Part shown: piece after piece, positions 8,347 through 40,471 of the stretch | Numbering within the stretch: the first letter of the stretch is position 1 | Layout of the letters: every line of letters starts with the position of its first letter | Position numbers and translations under genes: made by a program | Assembly: GCA_029055625.1 (NCBI GenBank) | Contig: JAIDCY010000023.1 | Coordinates: 1 to 54,473 of the forward strand | Direction of reading: 5' to 3' | From: Ruminococcus sp. | Lineage (GTDB): Bacteria > Bacillota > Clostridia > Oscillospirales > Ruminococcaceae | DNA length: 54,473 nt | Notes under the pieces: generated by a model | The model's database searches: none | Seen by the model: only the letters and a program-made list of their open reading frames with translations | Told to the model about the DNA's origin: nothing

Positions 8347-9102
8347 TCAGACCTTACGCAATGCCGATTTATACCGGAGGCGTAATTTATCCGTAATCAG
8401 TGCGATAAATTCGGAATTTGTAGGTTTACCCTTTCCGGTATCTACCGTATAACCGAAAAATGCATTTAATGTATCAACATTTCCCCTGTCCCACGCAATC
8501 TCTATGGCGTGTCTTATTGCACGCTCCACACGTGAAGAAGTTGTATCGTATATGCTGGCAACCGTCGGATAAAGTAGTTTTGTTACGCTGTCAAGCAGTG
8601 TTTTATCCTCGATTGAATAAAGTATAGCTGTTCTTAAGTAATGGTATCCCTTTATATGTGCCGGTACGCCTAACTGGTGTATTATATCCGTGACAACTAT
8701 TTCCATATCGTCGCTCAGACTTGTTGCCCTGTCACCGAGTGCGGAATTTATCGCACTGCATAAATCATCCGCATCGTAAGGCTTCAGCAGAAATTTTGAC
8801 GCTCCGTTTTCCATTACCTGACGTTCTATAAATTCGTTATCATATGCGGAAGTCACCACGAATACGGGGAATTTCACACCCTGCTCCCGTACCTTTTTCA
8901 TAAGTGCGAGAACGTCACCATTCTGTAGGTTTATGTCTATTACAACAACATCCGGTGGGTCGTTCCTTATGGAATCGAGTATCACATTACAATCTTTTCG
9001 CCTCGTATACGCATACATACCTCTTTCACGCAACTTATTGGCGACACTTACACCAGTTTCGGCGGAATCGTCACCAATAAGTACCCTGATTTTGTTATTC
9101 AA
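8347..9102 (-). CDS. spo0A: Sporulation master response regulator Spo0A
   Basis: 251 residues in two parts. The N-terminal receiver has acidic residues Asp11/Asp12, the phosphorylation site Asp56 in VVVIDINL, a VVTSAYDN switch region and LLKPYD with the conserved Lys. The C-terminal effector is unmistakable: [56 protein letters not shown] and [18 protein letters not shown] match the Spo0A DNA-binding domain almost word for word. When phosphorylated by the relay it binds 0A boxes to start sporulation and stationary-phase genes. AAAGGAGG precedes ATG 9102. Its presence says that the lineage has, or recently had, the endospore programme. No spoIVB gene is next to it, unlike the common clostridial arrangement. 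Confidence 0.97.
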
Positions 9103-9133
9103 AATTTTTTACCTCCTTTTGTTCAGTAAGTAT

Positions 9134-9163
9134 ATTCTATCATACCATACAAAAGAAGTGCAA
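9134..9163 (-). promoter_or_regulatory. Putative promoter of spo0A
   Basis: Minus-strand TTGCAC (9163-9158), 18-bp spacer, TAGAAT (9139-9134), 32 bases before the ATG. A weaker match than the other promoters here. I see no clear 0A box in this spacer. Confidence 0.45.
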
Positions 9164-9239
9164 CAGATTATTTTCAGTCTTTTTACGTTTTCTTATCGGG
9201 AAATGATGAAATTTGTAGACGGCAAAAATAAATGTCGTT

Positions 9240-10496
9240 TTATAGATGCGATTTAGCAAGAATCCTGTCCGCAATTGTCCTTACTTTAGTACCGGGCGGA
9301 AATAGTTTGTCGGCAATCTGTGAAAGAACGTTTTTTCTGACGGGTCTTGAATATACCGGCAGAATTTCGGGTTCTGTGATGTTCTGAGACCATTTTTTAT
9401 ATAAACCGTCGGAAATACACGAACGGAAGAATAATCTGTCAGCAGGTGCGGTATGTTTTTCCAGAAATCTTAACGGTATCTCACAGCCGGAGCAGGTAAG
9501 ATTATAACCGCTGAAATACTTTCCGTACAAGTACTTAAAATCCGCTATACCTTGCGATATTTTCGGATTATTTCCGAGACCTGATAAAATTTCACTTTGA
9601 AAATCTGTCTCCGGTTTGAAGTCATCTATCAGACTTAACGTACCGAAAATTATGAATCCTGTCATATACGGATTATTGCAGAAATCTGATTTTATTACCT
9701 TATTCTGCGGTATGTCGAAAGCATACATTGAATATATCCCGAATGCACACCGTAAAGCGATATACTCCGGATTGTCTATATCAAGCAACTTTTCCGCCTG
9801 TACGTATCCCCTTAAACGTCCGGATTTCACCATTAACGGCATTTCCGGAGACAGTAACAATGCTTTACATCCTTTAAGTACTGTTATTTCTACATCTTTT
9901 TCGACGTTTCCGCCTATATGTAGCAGTCCGGACGGTTTAATATCTGTTTTTTCCAGTATATCGCAGAAATTATCAGAAAAAACAATATCATCATATTTAT
10001 CGTATCCGCAATTATACAGTATCTTCTTTGTCAGTTCTTCCGGATATATTTTGTCGCATAATATTATTACACGCCTGTTATTTTTTATCGCCTGTCTGTA
10101 CAGTATTTTCCCGCAGTTTCTCGGTACGGTGAATTTCTCTTTTAATTTACACTCAATATCAACAAGTCCGGAAATATCCTTTATTTTTACCGTCTTTGCG
10201 ATATATCGGTATATACTTTCAAGACTTGTTTCACCTGTTTTTTTTATCGTCTTATCGTATGCCTCCGTACGTATTTCAGCAAAATCTTTCCCTGATTTAC
10301 CGTATTTCCTGAAATCTTCTTCCATTAAAACGTACATATCACGCTCTGCGGAAAACGGCATAACTGTGAGTACGTCTTTAAACCGGAAGCTCACCGCTTG
10401 TATTTCCGGTCTGGAAATCTCTTTCAGCATCTTATCTAAAAGTTTTTCCTGCTCCGGAGTTGTCAGCATATCGTGCTTTTCCGTATCCCTTACCAT
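9240..10496 (-). CDS. HAD-superfamily-like protein with degenerate catalytic motifs
   Basis: 418 residues, no signal peptide. The layout resembles the large HAD-fold proteins often found beside surface-glycan genes: an opening hydrophobic strand (QAVSFRFKDVLTVMPF), a middle strand RVIILCDKIYPEEL and LLHIGGNVEKDV. The catalytic residues expected there are missing: the nucleophile position of an SFDxFDTL-type motif reads SFRFKDVL, and the GDN of the last motif reads GGN. The C-terminal half (about 250-418) is unrecognised, with a Cys-rich stretch LTCSGCEIP. The start overlaps the stop of the GH26 gene by seven bases (ATGGTAA), so translation is probably coupled; a second ATG at 10469 is possible. 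A binding or regulatory role rather than phosphatase activity is inference. Confidence 0.55.
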   Translation of the reverse strand: MVRDTEKHDMLTTPEQEKLLDKMLKEISRPEIQAVSFRFKDVLTVMPFSAERDMYVLMEEDFRKYGKSGKDFAEIRTEAYDKTIKKTGETSLESIYRYIAKTVKIKDISGLVDIECKLKEKFTVPRNCGKILYRQAIKNNRRVIILCDKIYPEELTKKILYNCGYDKYDDIVFSDNFCDILEKTDIKPSGLLHIGGNVEKDVEITVLKGCKALLLSPEMPLMVKSGRLRGYVQAEKLLDIDNPEYIALRCAFGIYSMYAFDIPQNKVIKSDFCNNPYMTGFIIFGTLSLIDDFKPETDFQSEILSGLGNNPKISQGIADFKYLYGKYFSGYNLTCSGCEIPLRFLEKHTAPADRLFFRSCISDGLYKKWSQNITEPEILPVYSRPVRKNVLSQIADKLFPPGTKVRTIADRILAKSHL

Positions 10497-12379
10497 TCAC
10501 TGTACCCGTCGTCATAACCATAATCGTAATCATAGTTATAATCATAATCGTAATTGTAACTGTCGTCGTAATTGTAGTCGTAACCGTCGTAATTATATTC
10601 ATCTTCCGTGTAATCCGCTGTAGTTGTTGTAGTGGTTTCCTCGTCTTCTATGTAGCCGTATTCCTGTACCGCTTCTGTAGTAGTTGTAGTAGTTTCCTGC
10701 TGTGCGAGTTCCTCGGAAAAGTTTCTCGTACCGGTCGGTAACTCCTTACCGTCTGTAAGTGTCTTATACTCGTCCAACGTCAGCGAACCTACGGAATTAT
10801 ACGCTTTTGTGAGTTCGTCTTTAGTGTTGTACTGTTCGGAAAATGTGCCGTTTTCGTCCGTCAGATACTCACCGTTCCAGAGACCGAAAAATGACCATAC
10901 CGCATTATCCCGGAACATCGCATCAATATCGGGTACGTTATCGCATTCGCTGACCGCTATTATCTTATTGTCTATGTACTTCTGCACCGCCATAAGCTGT
11001 CCGGAACGACTGCCGAAATTATCGGTATCAGTGTATAAGTCATATGATGCTATATCATACGTTGAAGGGTCTACCGCATAAACATCACTCATACCGTTCC
11101 ATACCCATATCAGATTATCAAGTTCAAAGTAGTTCATGTAGCGATTATACATTAAGTTCCATAACCACTGATACGGTACTGCTCCGCCTGCTCCCCACCA
11201 GTATTCCGCACCTGCTTCCGTATCGTAACCAAGTGACGCTTCATAAAGCGGTCTCCATAATACCGGTACGCCATTTTCTTTTAACGGTTTCAGTTGTTTT
11301 TCCGCAAAATCATCCATTGCAAGTATCAGATTATAGCAATCGTCGGAAATAACGCCATCAAGACGTAAATCTGATATTTCCTGCTGTGTGGACATTGATA
11401 TATCATAATCCGTCATGGCGTTCCATATCGAGAAATTACTTTCCGTCGTGTATATTGAAGATGCCGTTGACGGTGAACTCCATTCCCACGTTATACCGTT
11501 TATACCGCCGTTCTGATGCCACTGTATACACGCATTCACGTTTGACGTATCTTCCGTATTCTCTACCGTTGAAAATCTGATAGCCGGATATTGTCCGGTT
11601 ATATCGTGGATAAGTTCGATTTCCTTGTTATCCGCACCGGAAACATACTGACCTGTAATAGTATACTTACCGTAATTATCCGCAAGAAATTTTATCAGAT
11701 TATTTGCTTCTATTGATATTCTCTGATTTACGGAAAAATCGTCTGTCTTGTAACTTATATTGTTTATTACGTTGGTATTCGTCACGTTGAGATAGTCAAG
11801 CATAACTTCGCCCTCCGGTATTACCTCGATAAATACCGAACCTTTTTCCATAAATACGCCCTGACACGTTATTTTCTGGAAAATACCGTCTGAACTTGTC
11901 GTGAAAGTATATAGTTCCTCACCGTCGAGCAGGACACGACAGTTTACGTTACTTTCCGAGGCGATACCTATTGATATATCGTAATGCTGTGTAGCCGGAG
12001 CGTCAAGACGGAATTTAAGGGAAGTTTTACCGTCCGAACCGAATCCGGTCACGTATCCGCCACCGCTGAATCCTTCATGTGCGTTATCAGGTCTGAGAGT
12101 TCCGGAAAGTCTTTCACGTTCCGCCTCATACATATCTCCGGCGTATGAGTGTTCCATTTCCGGATATGTTACGGGATTTTCCACCGCTGTTACTACTGGT
12201 TCTGTCGTATTCTCTTCCGTTACCGTTTCGCTGACGTTCTCCGTGACAGTTTCTTCCGGTAACGGCGGTACAACACCTGAACCGGAAACTTCTTCTTTTT
12301 TATCCGCATTACATGAAGTCACGGTCAGTACCGACATCGCAACCGCAACTGTTGCGGATATATATTTCAGGATTTTCAT
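10490..12379 (-). CDS. GH26 beta-mannanase-like lipoprotein with CBM-like domain and Tyr/Asp tail
   Basis: 629 residues. A lipoprotein signal ends at LTVTSC (Cys23), so the enzyme should be exported and membrane-anchored. Residues 24-80 are a Pro/Thr/Glu linker; about 84-205 form a beta-sandwich resembling CBM35/CBM6 (YEAERERLSG, GGGYVTGFG, LDYLNV). The GH26 barrel covers about 215-550: QYVSG and INGITWEWSSP, WRPLYEAS with probable acid/base Glu380, EYWWG and VSECDN with probable nucleophile Glu478. The usual RPxHE reads RPLYE. Beyond it come two Thr runs and a C-terminal tail made almost only of Tyr, Asp and Asn. Expected action is endo-cleavage of mannan; the substrate is inferred from family. 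GGAGGAAAT precedes the start. It follows the GH95 gene by 33 bases. Confidence 0.87.
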   Translation of the reverse strand: MKILKYISATVAVAMSVLTVTSCNADKKEEVSGSGVVPPLPEETVTENVSETVTEENTTEPVVTAVENPVTYPEMEHSYAGDMYEAERERLSGTLRPDNAHEGFSGGGYVTGFGSDGKTSLKFRLDAPATQHYDISIGIASESNVNCRVLLDGEELYTFTTSSDGIFQKITCQGVFMEKGSVFIEVIPEGEVMLDYLNVTNTNVINNISYKTDDFSVNQRISIEANNLIKFLADNYGKYTITGQYVSGADNKEIELIHDITGQYPAIRFSTVENTEDTSNVNACIQWHQNGGINGITWEWSSPSTASSIYTTESNFSIWNAMTDYDISMSTQQEISDLRLDGVISDDCYNLILAMDDFAEKQLKPLKENGVPVLWRPLYEASLGYDTEAGAEYWWGAGGAVPYQWLWNLMYNRYMNYFELDNLIWVWNGMSDVYAVDPSTYDIASYDLYTDTDNFGSRSGQLMAVQKYIDNKIIAVSECDNVPDIDAMFRDNAVWSFFGLWNGEYLTDENGTFSEQYNTKDELTKAYNSVGSLTLDEYKTLTDGKELPTGTRNFSEELAQQETTTTTTEAVQEYGYIEDEETTTTTTADYTEDEYNYDGYDYNYDDSYNYDYDYNYDYDYGYDDGYSEW

Positions 12380-33149: not shown

Positions 33150-33180
33150 TTCTTAATTCTGCATTCTTAATTATGGATTA
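33150..33180 (-). repeat. AT-rich dispersed repeat overlapping the atpC stop (copy 3)
   Basis: Minus strand AAATAATCCATAATTAAGAA, continuing with TGCAGAATTAAG. The TAA of atpC is the first unit. Confidence 0.5.
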
Positions 33181-33588
33181 TTTGAAGTGTTTCTGGGATA
33201 TTTTCAGTCTGTTCATAGCCCGGTTCAGAGCGGTCTGTGTATGGTAATATTCCATGATACTTTGTTTCTGTTTCAGCTTTTCCTCCGCACGGATACGGGC
33301 TTCTTCCGCACGTTTTATATCTATTTCTTCCGGAAGTTCGCAGGAATCGGCAAGAATTATGGAAGATTCCGGCATAACCTGTATGAACCCCTCCGAAATT
33401 GCCGCATAATGCCACTGACCGTCAGTCATGTACTTCAGTTCACCGGTTGGCAGTGAGGTAACAAGTGGTTCGTGACCGTACATGATACCTATTAAGCCAT
33501 CGATAGCGGTTATAACGAGATGTTCGCAGTCGCCGGAATAGAAAACCCTGTCAGTAGCGATTATTTCGAGGTGAAACGTTTTAGACAT
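33178..33588 (-). CDS. atpC: ATP synthase F1 epsilon subunit
   Basis: 136 residues. Rotor-stalk subunit that couples gamma to the c ring and can inhibit ATP hydrolysis. The N-terminal beta sandwich starts FHLEIIATDRVFYSGDCE and contains GLIGIMYGHEPLVTSLPTGEL; the C-terminal helical hairpin (about 90-136) has EIDIKRAEEARIRAEEKL. Last gene of the atp operon, 14 bases after atpD. No clear terminator follows before the secDF promoter. The stop codon lies at the start of an AT-rich repeat. Confidence 0.93.
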   Translation of the reverse strand: MSKTFHLEIIATDRVFYSGDCEHLVITAIDGLIGIMYGHEPLVTSLPTGELKYMTDGQWHYAAISEGFIQVMPESSIILADSCELPEEIDIKRAEEARIRAEEKLKQKQSIMEYYHTQTALNRAMNRLKISQKHFK

Positions 33589-33602: not shown

Positions 33603-34994
<1,392 letters not shown>

Positions 34995-35009: not shown

Positions 35010-35045
35010 TAAAAATTAATAATTATTAATTAATAATTATTTTTG
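35010..35045 (-). repeat. AT-rich dispersed repeat at the 3' side of the four-helix-bundle gene (copy 4)
   Basis: Minus strand ATAATTATTAATTAATAATT then ATTAATTTTT; it supplies the TAA of the four-helix-bundle frame. Together with copy 5 it brackets that gene. Confidence 0.65.
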
Positions 35046-35382
35046 TTTCATGGTTTTTATAATACTTGTAAGAAGTTTAATAAGTTCCTGACAGTCATTA
35101 CAGATACTTTCATATTGTTTATCGTCCAGATAATCAGTTTCGTGGAGAAGTTCAAGCCAGTATTCGGATTCACTTGCTTCTTTAATTGCGATACTCATTT
35201 TTGCGACGAAATCCGCTTTACTCTGTCCATATATAGCCTCTTTAATGTTTGCCCCTATACTCGTACCGCTCCGGAGAAGTTGTTTTGACAGAATATATTC
35301 CACTGTACATATATTTATATAGTTTCACGATACGCACCGCAAACGCCTTACTCTTAACTGCTATGATATTATTTTTGTTCAT
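35037..35382 (-). pseudogene. Frameshifted four-helix-bundle (S23/IVP family) gene inside the atp operon
   Basis: The downstream frame (35303-35037) encodes EYILSKQLLRSGTSIGANIK and a second part ending in YWLELLHETDYLDDKQY, the core of the small four-helix-bundle family first known from intervening sequences of 23S rRNA genes. The missing N-terminus is found upstream in another frame: ATG at 35382, MNKNNIIAVKSKAFAVRIVK then LYKYMYS. The two frames meet near 35303-35310. Rejoined they give about 115 residues, the usual family length or slightly short, consistent with a small net deletion at the junction. A poor RBS (AAGGGAAG) precedes 35382. A GTG at 35303 could start the truncated 88-residue protein, but without a visible RBS. 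Family function is unknown. Confidence 0.8.
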
Positions 35383-35401: not shown

Positions 35402-35442
35402 TATTTTAATTAATAATTGTTAATTATTAATTATTAATTGAT
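35402..35442 (-). repeat. AT-rich dispersed repeat overlapping the atpG stop (copy 5)
   Basis: Minus strand TCAATTAATAATTAATAATT, continuing with AACAATTATTAATTAAAAT. It encodes the last Ile-Asn-Asn and the TAA of atpG. It resembles copy 4 on the other side of the four-helix-bundle gene. Confidence 0.65.
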
Positions 35443-36335
35443 TCTGCTCCTCCGCAGACTTCCGTAATTTCCTGCGTAATACTGGCTTGTCTCGCACGGT
35501 TATATAACAGCGAAAGTTCTTTGATTATATCCTTAGCACTTTTTGTAGCGGAATCCATAGCGGTCATACGTGCCTGCTGTTCGCAACAAAACGCCTCTAC
35601 CATTGCACCGTAAATTATACCTTTTGCGAAGTTCGGGATAAGATACGCCATAACCTCTTCCGGCGACGGTACAAATGATGCTTTCGGAAGTTTTTTCATA
35701 GTACCGTCAGGGGACTTGCCTAAATGTCGTCTGCTGAACGGTAAAAGCTGTACTGTTTTCGGTTCGAACTGACTTGAATTTATCATCTGCGTATAGATTA
35801 AATACACTTCGTCGAGTTCTTTTTTCTCGAATTTTTCGAGAACCAGTTCCGCAATTTCCCTCGCACGATACAGTGTAGGATTCTGTGTGGTGTACAGAAA
35901 TTCACCGTCGACGTAAGCCATTTTATCACGTTTCATGCGGTTCTGAAAGTACATTCTTCCGACGTGTCCCATCACGAACAGATAACAATTATCAATATAT
36001 TTTGCTTCCGATAGCTTCTGTTCGGTATATCTCAGGATATTATGATTATAACTGCCACATAATCCCTTGTCGGCGGTGATGACTATATAACCCTTTTTTC
36101 GCTTATCATCGGAAATGCCTTGTCTTTTATCGAAATAGAACTGTCTTGTATGCGGTGTATGTTCGAGGATACTTTCTATAGTGGACTGTAATTTTTCAAA
36201 GTAAGGCGTGGTATCGTCAAGAGACTTTCGGGCTTTTTTGAGTTTCGAGGAGGATATAAGATACATGGCATTTGTGATTTTAAGTATCTGCTGTATACTG
36301 GCGATACGTTCACGGATTTCCCTGATATTAGCCAA
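35427..36335 (-). CDS. atpG: ATP synthase F1 gamma subunit
   Basis: 302 residues. Central rotor shaft. N-terminal coiled coil ANIREIRERIASIQQILKIT with NAMYLISSSKLKKA, the conserved middle ITADKGLCGSYN, and the C-terminal helix with MTAMDSATKSAKDII and YNRARQASITQEITEV, all typical. The start is TTG: AAGGAGG lies eight bases upstream, while the ATG just before it runs into a stop after four codons. The chain ends GGAESINN, the last two residues being supplied by an AT-rich repeat. It begins 13 bases after atpHA. Confidence 0.96.
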   Translation of the reverse strand: MANIREIRERIASIQQILKITNAMYLISSSKLKKARKSLDDTTPYFEKLQSTIESILEHTPHTRQFYFDKRQGISDDKRKKGYIVITADKGLCGSYNHNILRYTEQKLSEAKYIDNCYLFVMGHVGRMYFQNRMKRDKMAYVDGEFLYTTQNPTLYRAREIAELVLEKFEKKELDEVYLIYTQMINSSQFEPKTVQLLPFSRRHLGKSPDGTMKKLPKASFVPSPEEVMAYLIPNFAKGIIYGAMVEAFCCEQQARMTAMDSATKSAKDIIKELSLLYNRARQASITQEITEVCGGAESINN

Positions 36336-36348
36336 AAAACATACCTCC

Positions 36349-38367
36349 TTATTCCTCGAAAGCCGTCAGGATTCTTTCAATTCTTTCTGCGAGGTCATCA
36401 GTAAGAACCTTTTTATTTTCAAGTTCCTCAATAATATCCTGTCCGTAACTGCGTATATAGTTCATTAGTTCCGTACGGTATTCACGCAGTTCTTTCAACG
36501 GAATATCCCTGAAAAAACCGTGTTGTGCGGCGTATAGCAATATGACCTGCTCATAATGTGGTAGCGGATTATATAGCGGTTGTTTGAGAAGTTCGGTAAG
36601 CATACGTCCATGATTGAGTAAATCGGTAGTGGCTTTGTCGAGTTCTGAAGAAAACTGTGTAAATATTTCCATTTCCTTGAACTGTGCCAAGTCTATACGC
36701 AAATTTCCGGCAGATTTTTTCATAGCTTTTGTCTGAGCCGCACCGCCTACACGTGATACAGAAAGTCCATAATTTACCGCTGGTCTCTGACCGGAATTGA
36801 ATAATTCGCTTTCAAGAAATATCTGACCGTCGGTGATAGAGATTACGTTTGTAGGGATATACGCAGAAATATCACCGGCAAGAGTTTCGATAATCGGCAG
36901 TGCGGTAAGAGAACCGCCACCGTGTTCGTCATCGAGACGGCTGGAACGTTCAAGAAGTCTTGAGTGCAGATAGAAAACGTCACCGGGATATGCTTCACGT
37001 CCTGGGGGACGGTGCAGTAACAGTGACATCGCACGGTATGCCACGGCGTGTTTTGATAAATCGTCATAAACTATCAGAACGTCCTTACCTTTTGACATGA
37101 AATACTCCGCCATAGCCGTACCTGAATATGGTGCGATATACTGAAAAGGTGCGGGTTCGCTTGCAGATGCTGAAACTACTACGGAATAGTCCATAGCACC
37201 GTATTTTTTCAGATTATTCACCACCTGTGCGACGGTAGAGGATTTCTGACCGATTGCCACGTATATACATATAACGTCCTTGTCTTTCTGGTTTATGATA
37301 GTATCTATAGCAATAGAAGTTTTACCGGTTTGGCGGTCACCGATAATAAGTTCACGCTGACCACGTCCGATAGGAAACATTGAATCTATTGCGAGAATAC
37401 CGGTCTGTAACGGTACATTTACCGATTTTCTTTCAATAACGCTCGGTGCTTCACGTTCTATCGGGAAGTAGTCGACAGCCTTTATATTACCTAATCCGTC
37501 GATAGGCGAACCGAGTGCATCTACAACACGTCCGAGAAGTTCGTCACTTACGCCGACACCGGCACGCTTTCCGGTACGTATTACAGAAGAACCTTCTGTT
37601 AAACCCTGCTCCTGTCCGAGCAGTACAGCACCTACAGTTTTTTCTTCGAGACTTTGAATTATACCACGTACACCGTTTTCAAATTCGACGAGTTCACCGT
37701 ACATAACGCCGGTCATACCGTGTATACGGGCTATACCGTCGCCGATTCTCGTGATGAATCCTGTTTCGGTAGTACCTGTTTTTACGGTAAAGTCTTTTAC
37801 CTCGGTTTTGAGAACTGAAATAATATCGCCTGATGTTGTATCTTCCGATTCCGCCATTTCGGTAGCCTTTGTCTGAAACTGTTCTTTCATCTTCTTAAGG
37901 CTTGTACGATAGCTTCTGTCGTACTCGACATCACCGGCATTAAGGATAAAACCGCCGATAATATCGGGATCGTGACGGTATTCAATAGCTACATCATCTT
38001 TGAAGAATTTTTCCATTATGAATTTCCGTAAATCCGCCTGCTGAACTTCGGTAAGTGGTGTCACGTATCTTACAACCGCACGGATACTGTTCTGCTTATC
38101 AAGTAAAATATCGGTGTATTCGTCGAAAATATCCGGCAGACTGTCTATAACACCGTCTTTCACGGCGTTAATTAAAAATCTGTTGAGAATTTCCGGAAAA
38201 AGTTTCTTGATGATGTTTCTTTTTTCGTCGGGGGTAACAAGCGGATTTGACAGAGTATCCGCAACATCCGGACACGACGAGAATATATTTCTTACTTTAT
38301 CGATTTCTTCCTGTTGTACGTCAAGGCGGATTAATTCCTTAATGAAGTCTTTCCGATTATCTTTCAT
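36349..38367 (-). CDS. atpHA: Fused ATP synthase delta and alpha subunits
   Basis: 672 residues, one uninterrupted frame. Residues 1-170 are the delta subunit (OSCP): [30 protein letters not shown], and the C-terminal [23 protein letters not shown]. From about 171 the chain is a full alpha subunit: [18 protein letters not shown], Walker [10 protein letters not shown] near 345, [20 protein letters not shown], arginine-finger region [10 protein letters not shown] near 537. An internal ATG at 37857 ([10 protein letters not shown]) is preceded by AAAGG with eight bases between, and would make a free alpha of 502 residues, the normal length. Normally delta and alpha are two genes in a 1:3 ratio. 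AGGAGG precedes ATG 38367, whose ATGA overlaps the atpF stop. Confidence 0.95.
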
Positions 38368-38876
38368 GAATCGTCAACCTCCTCTGCGGTGAGAAATTCG
38401 TCGACAAGTCGGCGATTTCGTTCGTCGTCAATGTTTTCGCCGATAATTTTAGATGCCGTTTCGATAGCGAGGTCGGCAATCTGTGCCTGTGCCTGCTGGA
38501 TAATTCTTTTACGTTCATTTTCGATAGTTTTTCCGGCATTGCTTATAATTTCAGATGCTTCTTCCTGCGATTTTTTGAGTATAGCAGATTTTTCCGCTTC
38601 CGCCTCGTCGTGAGCTTTCATAATAATCTGTTGTGCTTCGTCCTTTGCGTTACTGATACTTTCTGCGTACTGTTCTTTAAGTTCTTCCGCTTCCTGACGT
38701 GATTTTTCCGCCTTATCGAGATTATCCTGAATCGTCCTTGTGCGTTCGTTCATGATTTTGGTAATCGGTTTAAACAGGAATATCCGGAGCAGGACAAACA
38801 GTATTATTATATTTACCGCCGACCATATGAAATTCCATATATTAACGTCAAGCATCGTACCTTTTAAAGCGTCCAT
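38364..38876 (-). CDS. atpF: ATP synthase Fo b subunit
   Basis: 170 residues. Peripheral stalk: one N-terminal membrane helix ([20 protein letters not shown]), then a long charged helix rich in Ala, Glu, Lys, Gln through residue 160. It joins Fo to delta on top of F1, here to the delta part of the delta-alpha fusion. GAAAGGAG precedes ATG 38876; the stop overlaps the start of atpHA by four bases. Confidence 0.95.
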
Positions 38877-38916: not shown

Positions 38917-39138
38917 TTATTTGAGTATGAAGATTATCAGAATTGCTATGACGAATCCGTAAATTGCGGTAGCTTCGGCGAGTGCACAGCCTAAAAGTAA
39001 TGCCTTGTTAATATCGCCTTTAGCTTCCGGCTGACGTGCTATAGCGTCGGCAGCCTTTGAAGTTGCTATACCTATACCTATACCTGCTCCCATACCTGTG
39101 AGAACGGCAAGTCCTGCACCTATTGCGATTAATCCCAT
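38917..39138 (-). CDS. atpE: ATP synthase Fo c subunit
   Basis: 73 residues, two membrane helices with the ARQPEAKGDI loop between. The ion-binding Glu is Glu55 in LAEATAIYG. The classical sodium signature of Ilyobacter-type rings needs Gln in helix 1 (GVGQGY) and Ser after the Glu; here those positions read Ile22 (GIGIGI) and Ala56, so a proton ring is more likely, although Thr57 is present. CGGAGG precedes the ATG. Confidence 0.96.
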   Translation of the reverse strand: MGLIAIGAGLAVLTGMGAGIGIGIATSKAADAIARQPEAKGDINKALLLGCALAEATAIYGFVIAILIIFILK

Positions 39139-39179: not shown

Positions 39180-39866
39180 TTATTCGTTTTCCATAGCCTC
39201 CGACATGAAAAGCGATGTTAAAAATACGAACACATAAGCCTGAATGCAACCGTCGAAAATATCGAAATAGAAACTGAATACCAACGGCAGACCTACAGGG
39301 AGTATCATTTTGATAAGTTCCATTACGACGAATGCACCGAGAACGTTGCCGAAAAGTCGCATACATAGGGACAGCGGTTTGATAACGAGTTCAAGTATAT
39401 TCATAGGTAACATCAACGGCATAGGTTCTTTGAAACTCTTTAACCAGCCTTTCAGACCCTTTTCATTGATTCCGCTGAACTGTATAAGCAGTATCGCAAA
39501 GAGTGCGAGAGTAGCGGTAACGCCTAAATCTTTTGTAGGTGGTCTCAAACCAAAAAGCCCTATGATATTTGACATACCTATATATATAAGAAACGTTTCC
39601 AGTATCGGCAGATATTTTTTGCCTTTTTCTCCGAGTATCTCCGTAAAGAAATTATTCATCCACTCGATACCCGATTCTATCAGGCACTGTATACCGGTAG
39701 GAACTGTCTTAAGATTCCGTACGAATATTATAGACGCTATGACGAGTACCGCCATTATCACCCACGTTATAACACACGATTCGGGAACGGGAATACCACC
39801 TAAAACCGGTATGGTAAACGCTACACGACATTCGAGTTCTTCCATAAGTTTTTCTGCAATATCCAT
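39180..39866 (-). CDS. atpB: ATP synthase Fo a subunit
   Basis: 228 residues. Ion-channel half of Fo; five to six membrane helices. The essential Arg is in KPLSLCMRLFGNVLGAF, with the NExxE-type and final helices FSFYFDIFDGCIQAYVFVFL. First gene of the atp operon. A GTG at 39875 overlaps the AGAAGG site, so ATG 39866 (MDIAEKLMEEL) is preferred. No atpI is seen upstream. Confidence 0.95.
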   Translation of the reverse strand: MDIAEKLMEELECRVAFTIPVLGGIPVPESCVITWVIMAVLVIASIIFVRNLKTVPTGIQCLIESGIEWMNNFFTEILGEKGKKYLPILETFLIYIGMSNIIGLFGLRPPTKDLGVTATLALFAILLIQFSGINEKGLKGWLKSFKEPMPLMLPMNILELVIKPLSLCMRLFGNVLGAFVVMELIKMILPVGLPLVFSFYFDIFDGCIQAYVFVFLTSLFMSEAMENE

Positions 39867-39894
39867 AAATAACACCTTCTTTCAGATATAATAA

Positions 39895-40072: not shown

Positions 40073-40471
40073 TTATTTCTGATTTTCTGCAATAGAAATT
40101 GCATTGTTAAGACGTTCTATGGCGGTATTGTTAAGTTTTGTGGAAAGGCGTACACGGTCTAACTCCGCCTTAAGAGATTTGAGTTCAACGGCGATATTTT
40201 TCATAGCGTTGGAGTGTTCCGCCTGAATTTTCCTGATAGTTTCCGTCTGGGTTTCCACAAAATGATTTAAAGTTTCTGCTAACTGTACGTTCTGGTCTTC
40301 AAGAAAACATACTCTTTTAAGTAGTTCGTTAATATTGGTAGCGAGCAGGATATTAGCGTTATTTTGTTTTATACCAAAATCGGTCAGTCGGGAAGCTGTC
40401 TGAAAAGTTGAAATTTTTTCCTCACTGTCGAAAGTGTTCATATTTGCATTGGTTAGCGTTATATCTGACAT
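40073..40471 (-). CDS. Small coiled-coil protein, function unknown
   Basis: 132 residues, no signal peptide or membrane segment. Residues 45-130 have heptad-like spacing of Leu, Ile and Val (INELLKRVCFLEDQNVQLAE, LNHFVETQTETIRKIQ), predicting a long coiled coil. AAAGGAT, overlapping the stop of rmd, is its ribosome binding site, so it is the last gene of the exopolysaccharide operon. I recognise no family. A structural or regulatory partner of glycan assembly is only a guess from position. Confidence 0.7.
   Translation of the reverse strand: MSDITLTNANMNTFDSEEKISTFQTASRLTDFGIKQNNANILLATNINELLKRVCFLEDQNVQLAETLNHFVETQTETIRKIQAEHSNAMKNIAVELKSLKAELDRVRLSTKLNNTAIERLNNAISIAENQK

Follow-up and report, generated by a model that had tools for sequence, protein, structure and literature searches.

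A natural fusion of the ATP synthase delta and alpha subunits in Ruminococcus and its shortened and extended relatives in Clostridia

Textbooks give one delta per F1 as a constant of ATP synthases. An operon of a Ruminococcus sp. in which delta and alpha are encoded by a single reading frame raises the question of how this number could be kept: with three alphas in F1, and hence three deltas in a purely fused enzyme, the ratio becomes a puzzle, as pointed out in the first-pass annotation of the locus and supported here. The locus lies in a window of 54,473 nucleotides (the whole stretch of DNA analyzed), which is an entire contig (C68), one of the 151 in a genome of 2.5 Mb that is 92% complete. 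Natural b-delta fusions and an engineered fusion of the delta C-terminal domain with alpha are already known; we ourselves are not aware that natural delta-alpha fusions have been reported, and make no claim about the literature.

The fusion gene (atpH-atpA; 36349–38367, minus strand), identified from its reading frame, profile matches, and conservation in the genus, starts with ATG and continues for 672 codons without a stop. Residues 15–163 match the delta/OSCP family PF00213 (E 7e-28; 98.2 bits against a gathering cut-off of 22.3; profile positions 19–171 of 172), with both the N-terminal domain (NTD) and the C-terminal domain (CTD) present, and residues 179–671 match the F-type alpha model TIGR00962 (atpA) over its whole length (770 bits against a cut-off of 484.45; model positions 4–498 of 503), with Pfam alpha domains at residues 201–266, 323–538, and 545–670; thus, one open frame indeed carries a complete delta followed by a complete alpha, as first annotated. 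The AlphaFold2 model of the protein (51 sequences; pLDDT 76.5, pTM 0.63) together with the profile matches delineates a six-helix bundle of the delta NTD (residues 1–91; 38095–38367, minus strand); the delta CTD (residues 92–172; 37852–38094, minus strand), the sole delta part retained in the deltaCTD-alpha relatives described below; a non-helical linker (residues 173–178; 37834–37851, minus strand), variable in sequence and length among the genus; and the alpha subunit (residues 179–672; 36352–37833, minus strand) with a predicted N-terminal helix at 179–196, the linker and this helix being modelled with a pLDDT near 50.

Other known systems share single features with this gene. Alpha homology is common to the fusion and to the N-ATPase (alternate F1F0, TIGR03324), but the fusion scores 617.1 bits against that model, below its cut-off of 750.5. 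Delta is covalently joined to another subunit also in the mycobacterial b-delta fusion (NF009961; PDB 9vkp chain d, 'ATP synthase subunit b-delta'); the partner there is b, whereas in the window the partner is alpha and b is a separate gene. The mycobacterial enzyme has one delta, hence no ratio problem arises. Ordinary F-type operons, represented by the unfused sister loci L040, L041, and L046, have the same surrounding gene order and the same alpha and delta families, but one or more stop codons and a GGAGGTGA-type ribosome site lie between their delta and alpha; the window has neither a stop in the 672 codons nor a conserved start with an SD sequence.

The operon, all on the minus strand and assigned by Pfam, has the order a, c, b, delta-alpha, gamma, beta, epsilon: atpB (a; 39180–39875), atpE (c; 38917–39138), atpF (b; 38364–38876), the fusion, atpG (gamma; 35427–36335, with a TTG start in the list of open reading frames), atpD (beta; 33603–34994), and atpC (epsilon; 33178–33588). 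The stop of atpF overlaps the fusion start by four bases, ATGA, in agreement with the first-pass annotation. The operon is otherwise ordinary, except that gamma and beta are separated by a small additional gene (35037–35303, minus strand) encoding a four-helix protein of the 23S rRNA-intervening-sequence type (PF05635, 1e-24), whose N-terminus looks short, since the profile match covers positions 28–105 of 106; it is also seen in L005 (91%), has a weak match in L034 (30%), and, beyond the window's own L001/L003, matches no further fetched locus, not all of which extend that far. Just upstream of atpB, a 132-residue protein without a Pfam match is encoded (40073–40471, minus strand). A search of the own genome with the fusion yields no second F-type alpha and no separate delta; besides the fusion it matches the beta subunit and, on contig C89 of this genome, two ATPase-like frames (G000; 8680–10931; L002 and L004) of 455 and 592 codons, at 27–30% to alpha. 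By length and position the latter are taken for V-type subunits, hence this genome may hold a V/A-type ATPase as well.

A search of 125 genus genomes, own genome included, gives a match in 120, and 116 of them have the same in-frame fusion (G018, G025, and G033, partial but covering the junction, are counted as fused). The first-pass annotation had proposed to look for it in related Ruminococcus genomes, and had set against it the finding of separate atpH and atpA in all close relatives; the reverse of the latter is observed. The remaining four genomes (G062, G090, G102, and G110) show only an unfused, more distant alpha; being 85–99% complete, they might still have a fusion that the assemblies miss. 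All eight nearest matches in the named collection, among the matches listed, are labelled Ruminococcus, one being R. flavefaciens. Estimates of dN/dS, rough because dS often exceeds 1 or cannot be estimated, are 0.07–0.14 for the delta NTD (six of 12 pairs estimable) and 0.025–0.043 for the alpha core (11 of 12 pairs), so that, judged by substitution rates where they are estimable, the delta NTD is kept in this genus under purifying selection. A sequencing or assembly error, or gene decay, can be dismissed: nothing found speaks for it, and the frame shared by the 116 genomes and the low dN/dS values, where estimable, rule against these explanations and bear out the earlier view that the gene is intact. 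Separately, eleven genomes (G029, G039, G042, G045, G046, G057, G058, G061, G069, G078, and G087) have a second, unfused F-type alpha (55–61% identity) beside the fusion; a separate delta adjoins each of the three that were fetched (L075–L077).

Scanning the family (396 genomes), the order (394), and the phylum (398), plus 80 loci of the named collection, gives 256 loci with alpha, genus loci included, or 245 after removal of 11 with an identical alpha core. Among the matches listed, 85 of these have a full delta-alpha fusion, 71 a deltaCTD-alpha fusion, 15 a b-deltaCTD-alpha fusion, and 74 separate genes; as the loci are best-scoring matches to fusion-type queries, these shares are not natural frequencies. 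The window's genus contributes 53 of the 171 fused loci, all with the NTD. Named holders of the full fusion include Pseudobutyrivibrio xylanivorans (DSM 14809, L200), Agathobacter ruminis, and Oribacterium parvum, and those of the deltaCTD-alpha form include Butyrivibrio hungatei, Shuttleworthella satelles, and Absicoccus porci. By a delta model built here, 86 of the 171 fused loci lack the NTD, whereas all 73 separate deltas among the matches listed have it (the 74th separate locus, L055, is cut by a contig end and is left out of this count). In all ten shortened or triple fusions scanned, OSCP is matched no earlier than from profile position 79–110 of 172 onward. Full fusions (L043–L045) and fusions without the NTD (L047, L049–L051) occur in one clade of a single genus, g35, which, as far as its gene sequences tell, is a case of the NTD-loss step itself.

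The 15 triple fusions (L160–L174; families f19, f20, f21, and f24 of the order) are frames of 736–784 codons whose product starts with a membrane helix resembling that of b, followed by a long helical stretch, the delta CTD, and alpha. ATP-synt_B, OSCP, and alpha are matched together in the two that were scanned with Pfam, and a hydrophobic N-terminal stretch is seen in all 15, with a 19-residue hydropathy of 2.1–2.8 versus a maximum of 0.86 in the first ~200 residues of the window fusion. These genes lie downstream of c and, in six of 15 cases, also downstream of a separate short b gene (BLAST). A structural model of a triple fusion has an overall pLDDT of 63.7, with much of it at low confidence.

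A simple escape from the ratio puzzle, suggested in the first-pass annotation, would be a dual product: an internal start at 37857 would yield free alpha of normal length, and most alpha would be unfused. The in-frame ATG (residue 171; 37855–37857, minus strand) with AAAGG eight bases upstream is present near the alpha boundary as described; nevertheless, it probably is no start. The place is alignable by a flanking motif in 37 of the 49 genus loci, and Met is found in one of these 37, the window itself; the eight nearest loci (L005–L012) have Leu or Phe. The ATG sits in a variable stretch, the linker length differing across the genus. The 48 genus loci parsed (L039 was inspected manually) share no place near the junction where a start codon accompanied by an SD-like site recurs; SD-like matches of four to six bases by some in-frame start are seen in six loci (L001, L016, L030, L032, L078, and L080), each time at another position. 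Upstream of alpha, 44 of the 49 genus loci contain a Met codon in the last delta helix, which in principle could start without an SD; however, it has none in the genus scan, and it is present within the delta of the unfused L040 and L041 as well.

The unfused loci show what a working alpha start looks like. The GGAGGTGA ribosome site directly precedes the alpha ATG in L040, L041, L046, L054, and L056; strong in these sisters, it is lost in the fusions. A criterion of five-base SD cores does not count the AAAGG of the window (scored here as having no signal), and 23 of the 74 separate loci fail it, too. By this criterion, 51 of 74 separate loci have an SD core at an in-frame start close to the first position of alpha, versus two of 53 genus fusions and seven of 118 other fusions at the alpha boundary, among the matches listed; the same scan inside alpha gives a background of 4.1% in fused and 4.7% in separate loci. 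The two genus fusions (L032 and L183) have a GTG with the core GAGGT near the boundary, and may be counted in favor of a dual product. As fused loci are at the background level for start signals and have lost the SD of the sisters, and as conservation of the ATG at 37857 is lacking, the internal start is rejected and a dual product is very unlikely. Delta and alpha of L040 and L041 are in the same frame, a few codons with two stops apart, which makes stop-codon loss a plausible route to the fusion.

We consider it probable, from the comparison of genes, that the operon makes a single 672-residue delta-alpha product, that each F1 carries three tethered deltas, and that the tether replaces NTD docking. 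Three deltas per F1 would follow because neither free alpha nor a conserved alpha start signal is seen. Alpha would be made solely as the fusion, and at least one delta would do the normal job, its CTD gripping the b dimer and so tying F1 to the peripheral stalk. Since delta would be held covalently on alpha, the tether would take over the non-covalent docking of the NTD on the F1 crown, which would no longer be essential; the proposed replacement would explain why the NTD has been lost more than once in fused lineages and not in the free deltas examined. The other two deltas would be idle, or each would recruit its own b dimer, perhaps with an a subunit. Such an enzyme, genus-wide and unaccompanied by any free alpha in the genome searched, that of the window, would challenge the one-delta constant in gut bacteria, and the loss of the docking domain in fused but not in free deltas provides an evolutionary argument for the purpose of that domain. 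The NTD of known F1 sits singly on the top axis, hence three full deltas should be crowded.

The main alternative to three tethered deltas is proteolytic release: the fusion would be translated whole and then cut in the cell at the linker to give free delta and alpha. Of five regions compared, residues 159–181, which hold the non-helical, low-confidence linker, are the least similar in 12 of 12 pairs by identity, which would suit a cleavage loop. However, neither the sequence nor the length of the linker is conserved in the genus, hence no fixed cleavage site is visible; the loss of the NTD in fused but not in free deltas would be unexpected if delta were released; and the b-deltaCTD-alpha form would need two cuts. 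We thus regard cleavage as rather unlikely.

Three tethered deltas have a designed precedent. The best Foldseek match of the window model is PDB 9jc1 ('Engineering of ATP synthase', released 2025-07-09), with chains I, J, and K at ranks 1, 7, and 9 and a sequence match covering residues 96–666 (a VIA-align comparison, with 50 rows shown, mainly concerns the alpha part and does not have 9jc1 among these rows, with no bearing on the conclusions). The fused chain of 9jc1 consists of the Bacillus PS3 delta CTD (letters the same as in 6n2y chain I), a GGSGGS-containing linker, and alpha; it is present in three copies, hence a triply fused F1 can assemble. With 563, 548, and 559 of 580 residues in the structure library, part of the delta extension is presumably modelled in each copy. 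As in the window, delta is in frame with the alpha N-terminus; unlike the natural window protein, which retains the NTD, 9jc1 is designed, with an artificial linker and without the NTD, so that the window does not belong to this type and the analogy for three full deltas is weakened. Natural deltaCTD-alpha relatives, e.g., that of Butyrivibrio hungatei DSM 14810 (L221), are closer to the design than the window is; judging by these genes, nature has made the 9jc1 junction too and, in many Clostridia, the same delta NTD deletion. The engineered enzyme was reportedly built for up to three stalks and a-subunits, in order to raise the proton-to-ATP ratio.

Given three tethered deltas, two or three of them might each bind a b dimer, perhaps with an a subunit, to form up to three peripheral stalks, possibly with a higher proton-to-ATP ratio. 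This is a tentative possibility, on the doubtful side. It is favored by the engineered deltaCTD-alpha enzyme, with most of the fused chain seen in all three copies, and by the b-deltaCTD-alpha form, which would place a membrane helix, hence an anchor of its own, on every alpha of that enzyme; on the other hand, the window keeps the NTD, and probably only one NTD fits on the F1 axis. The single a, c, and b genes of the window operon are uninformative on copy number. More broadly, Clostridia might, somewhat speculatively, have repeatedly evolved ATP synthases in which several peripheral stalks are covalently anchored, with delta placed on three alphas (Ruminococcus), the docking domain dropped (Butyrivibrio and many others), and a membrane-anchored b added (one lineage). 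If true, multi-stalk enzymes would be a natural counterpart of the engineered one, and would serve anaerobes that have to manage with a low proton-motive force. The multi-stalk question is most pressing for the b-deltaCTD-alpha form, with which the stator stalk number of natural F-type enzymes can be put to a direct test.

The history of the fusions was assessed on trees of alpha only, built by quick methods and midpoint-rooted, in which gains and splits are indistinguishable: fusion state needs eight changes on a tree of 160 rows (of 176, with 16 near copies dropped by hand; the named-collection loci are outside this set) and ten on a tree of 72 of 73 hand-picked loci (L221 being left out for its identical core). 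A single clade of all fused rows is rejected (p 1e-77), and so is one of all rows lacking the NTD (p 5e-69). The alpha tree fits repeated fusion as well as an early fusion with later splits. For pairs of genera, picked after the tree was seen, one clade of the window's genus (g1) with g54 is rejected, and a joint fused clade of g1 and g35 is compatible with the data (p 0.087); the window fusion may therefore share its origin with that of g35. Two c-subunit-like frames are found in the operon at L040, L042, L064, L067, L078, and L079.
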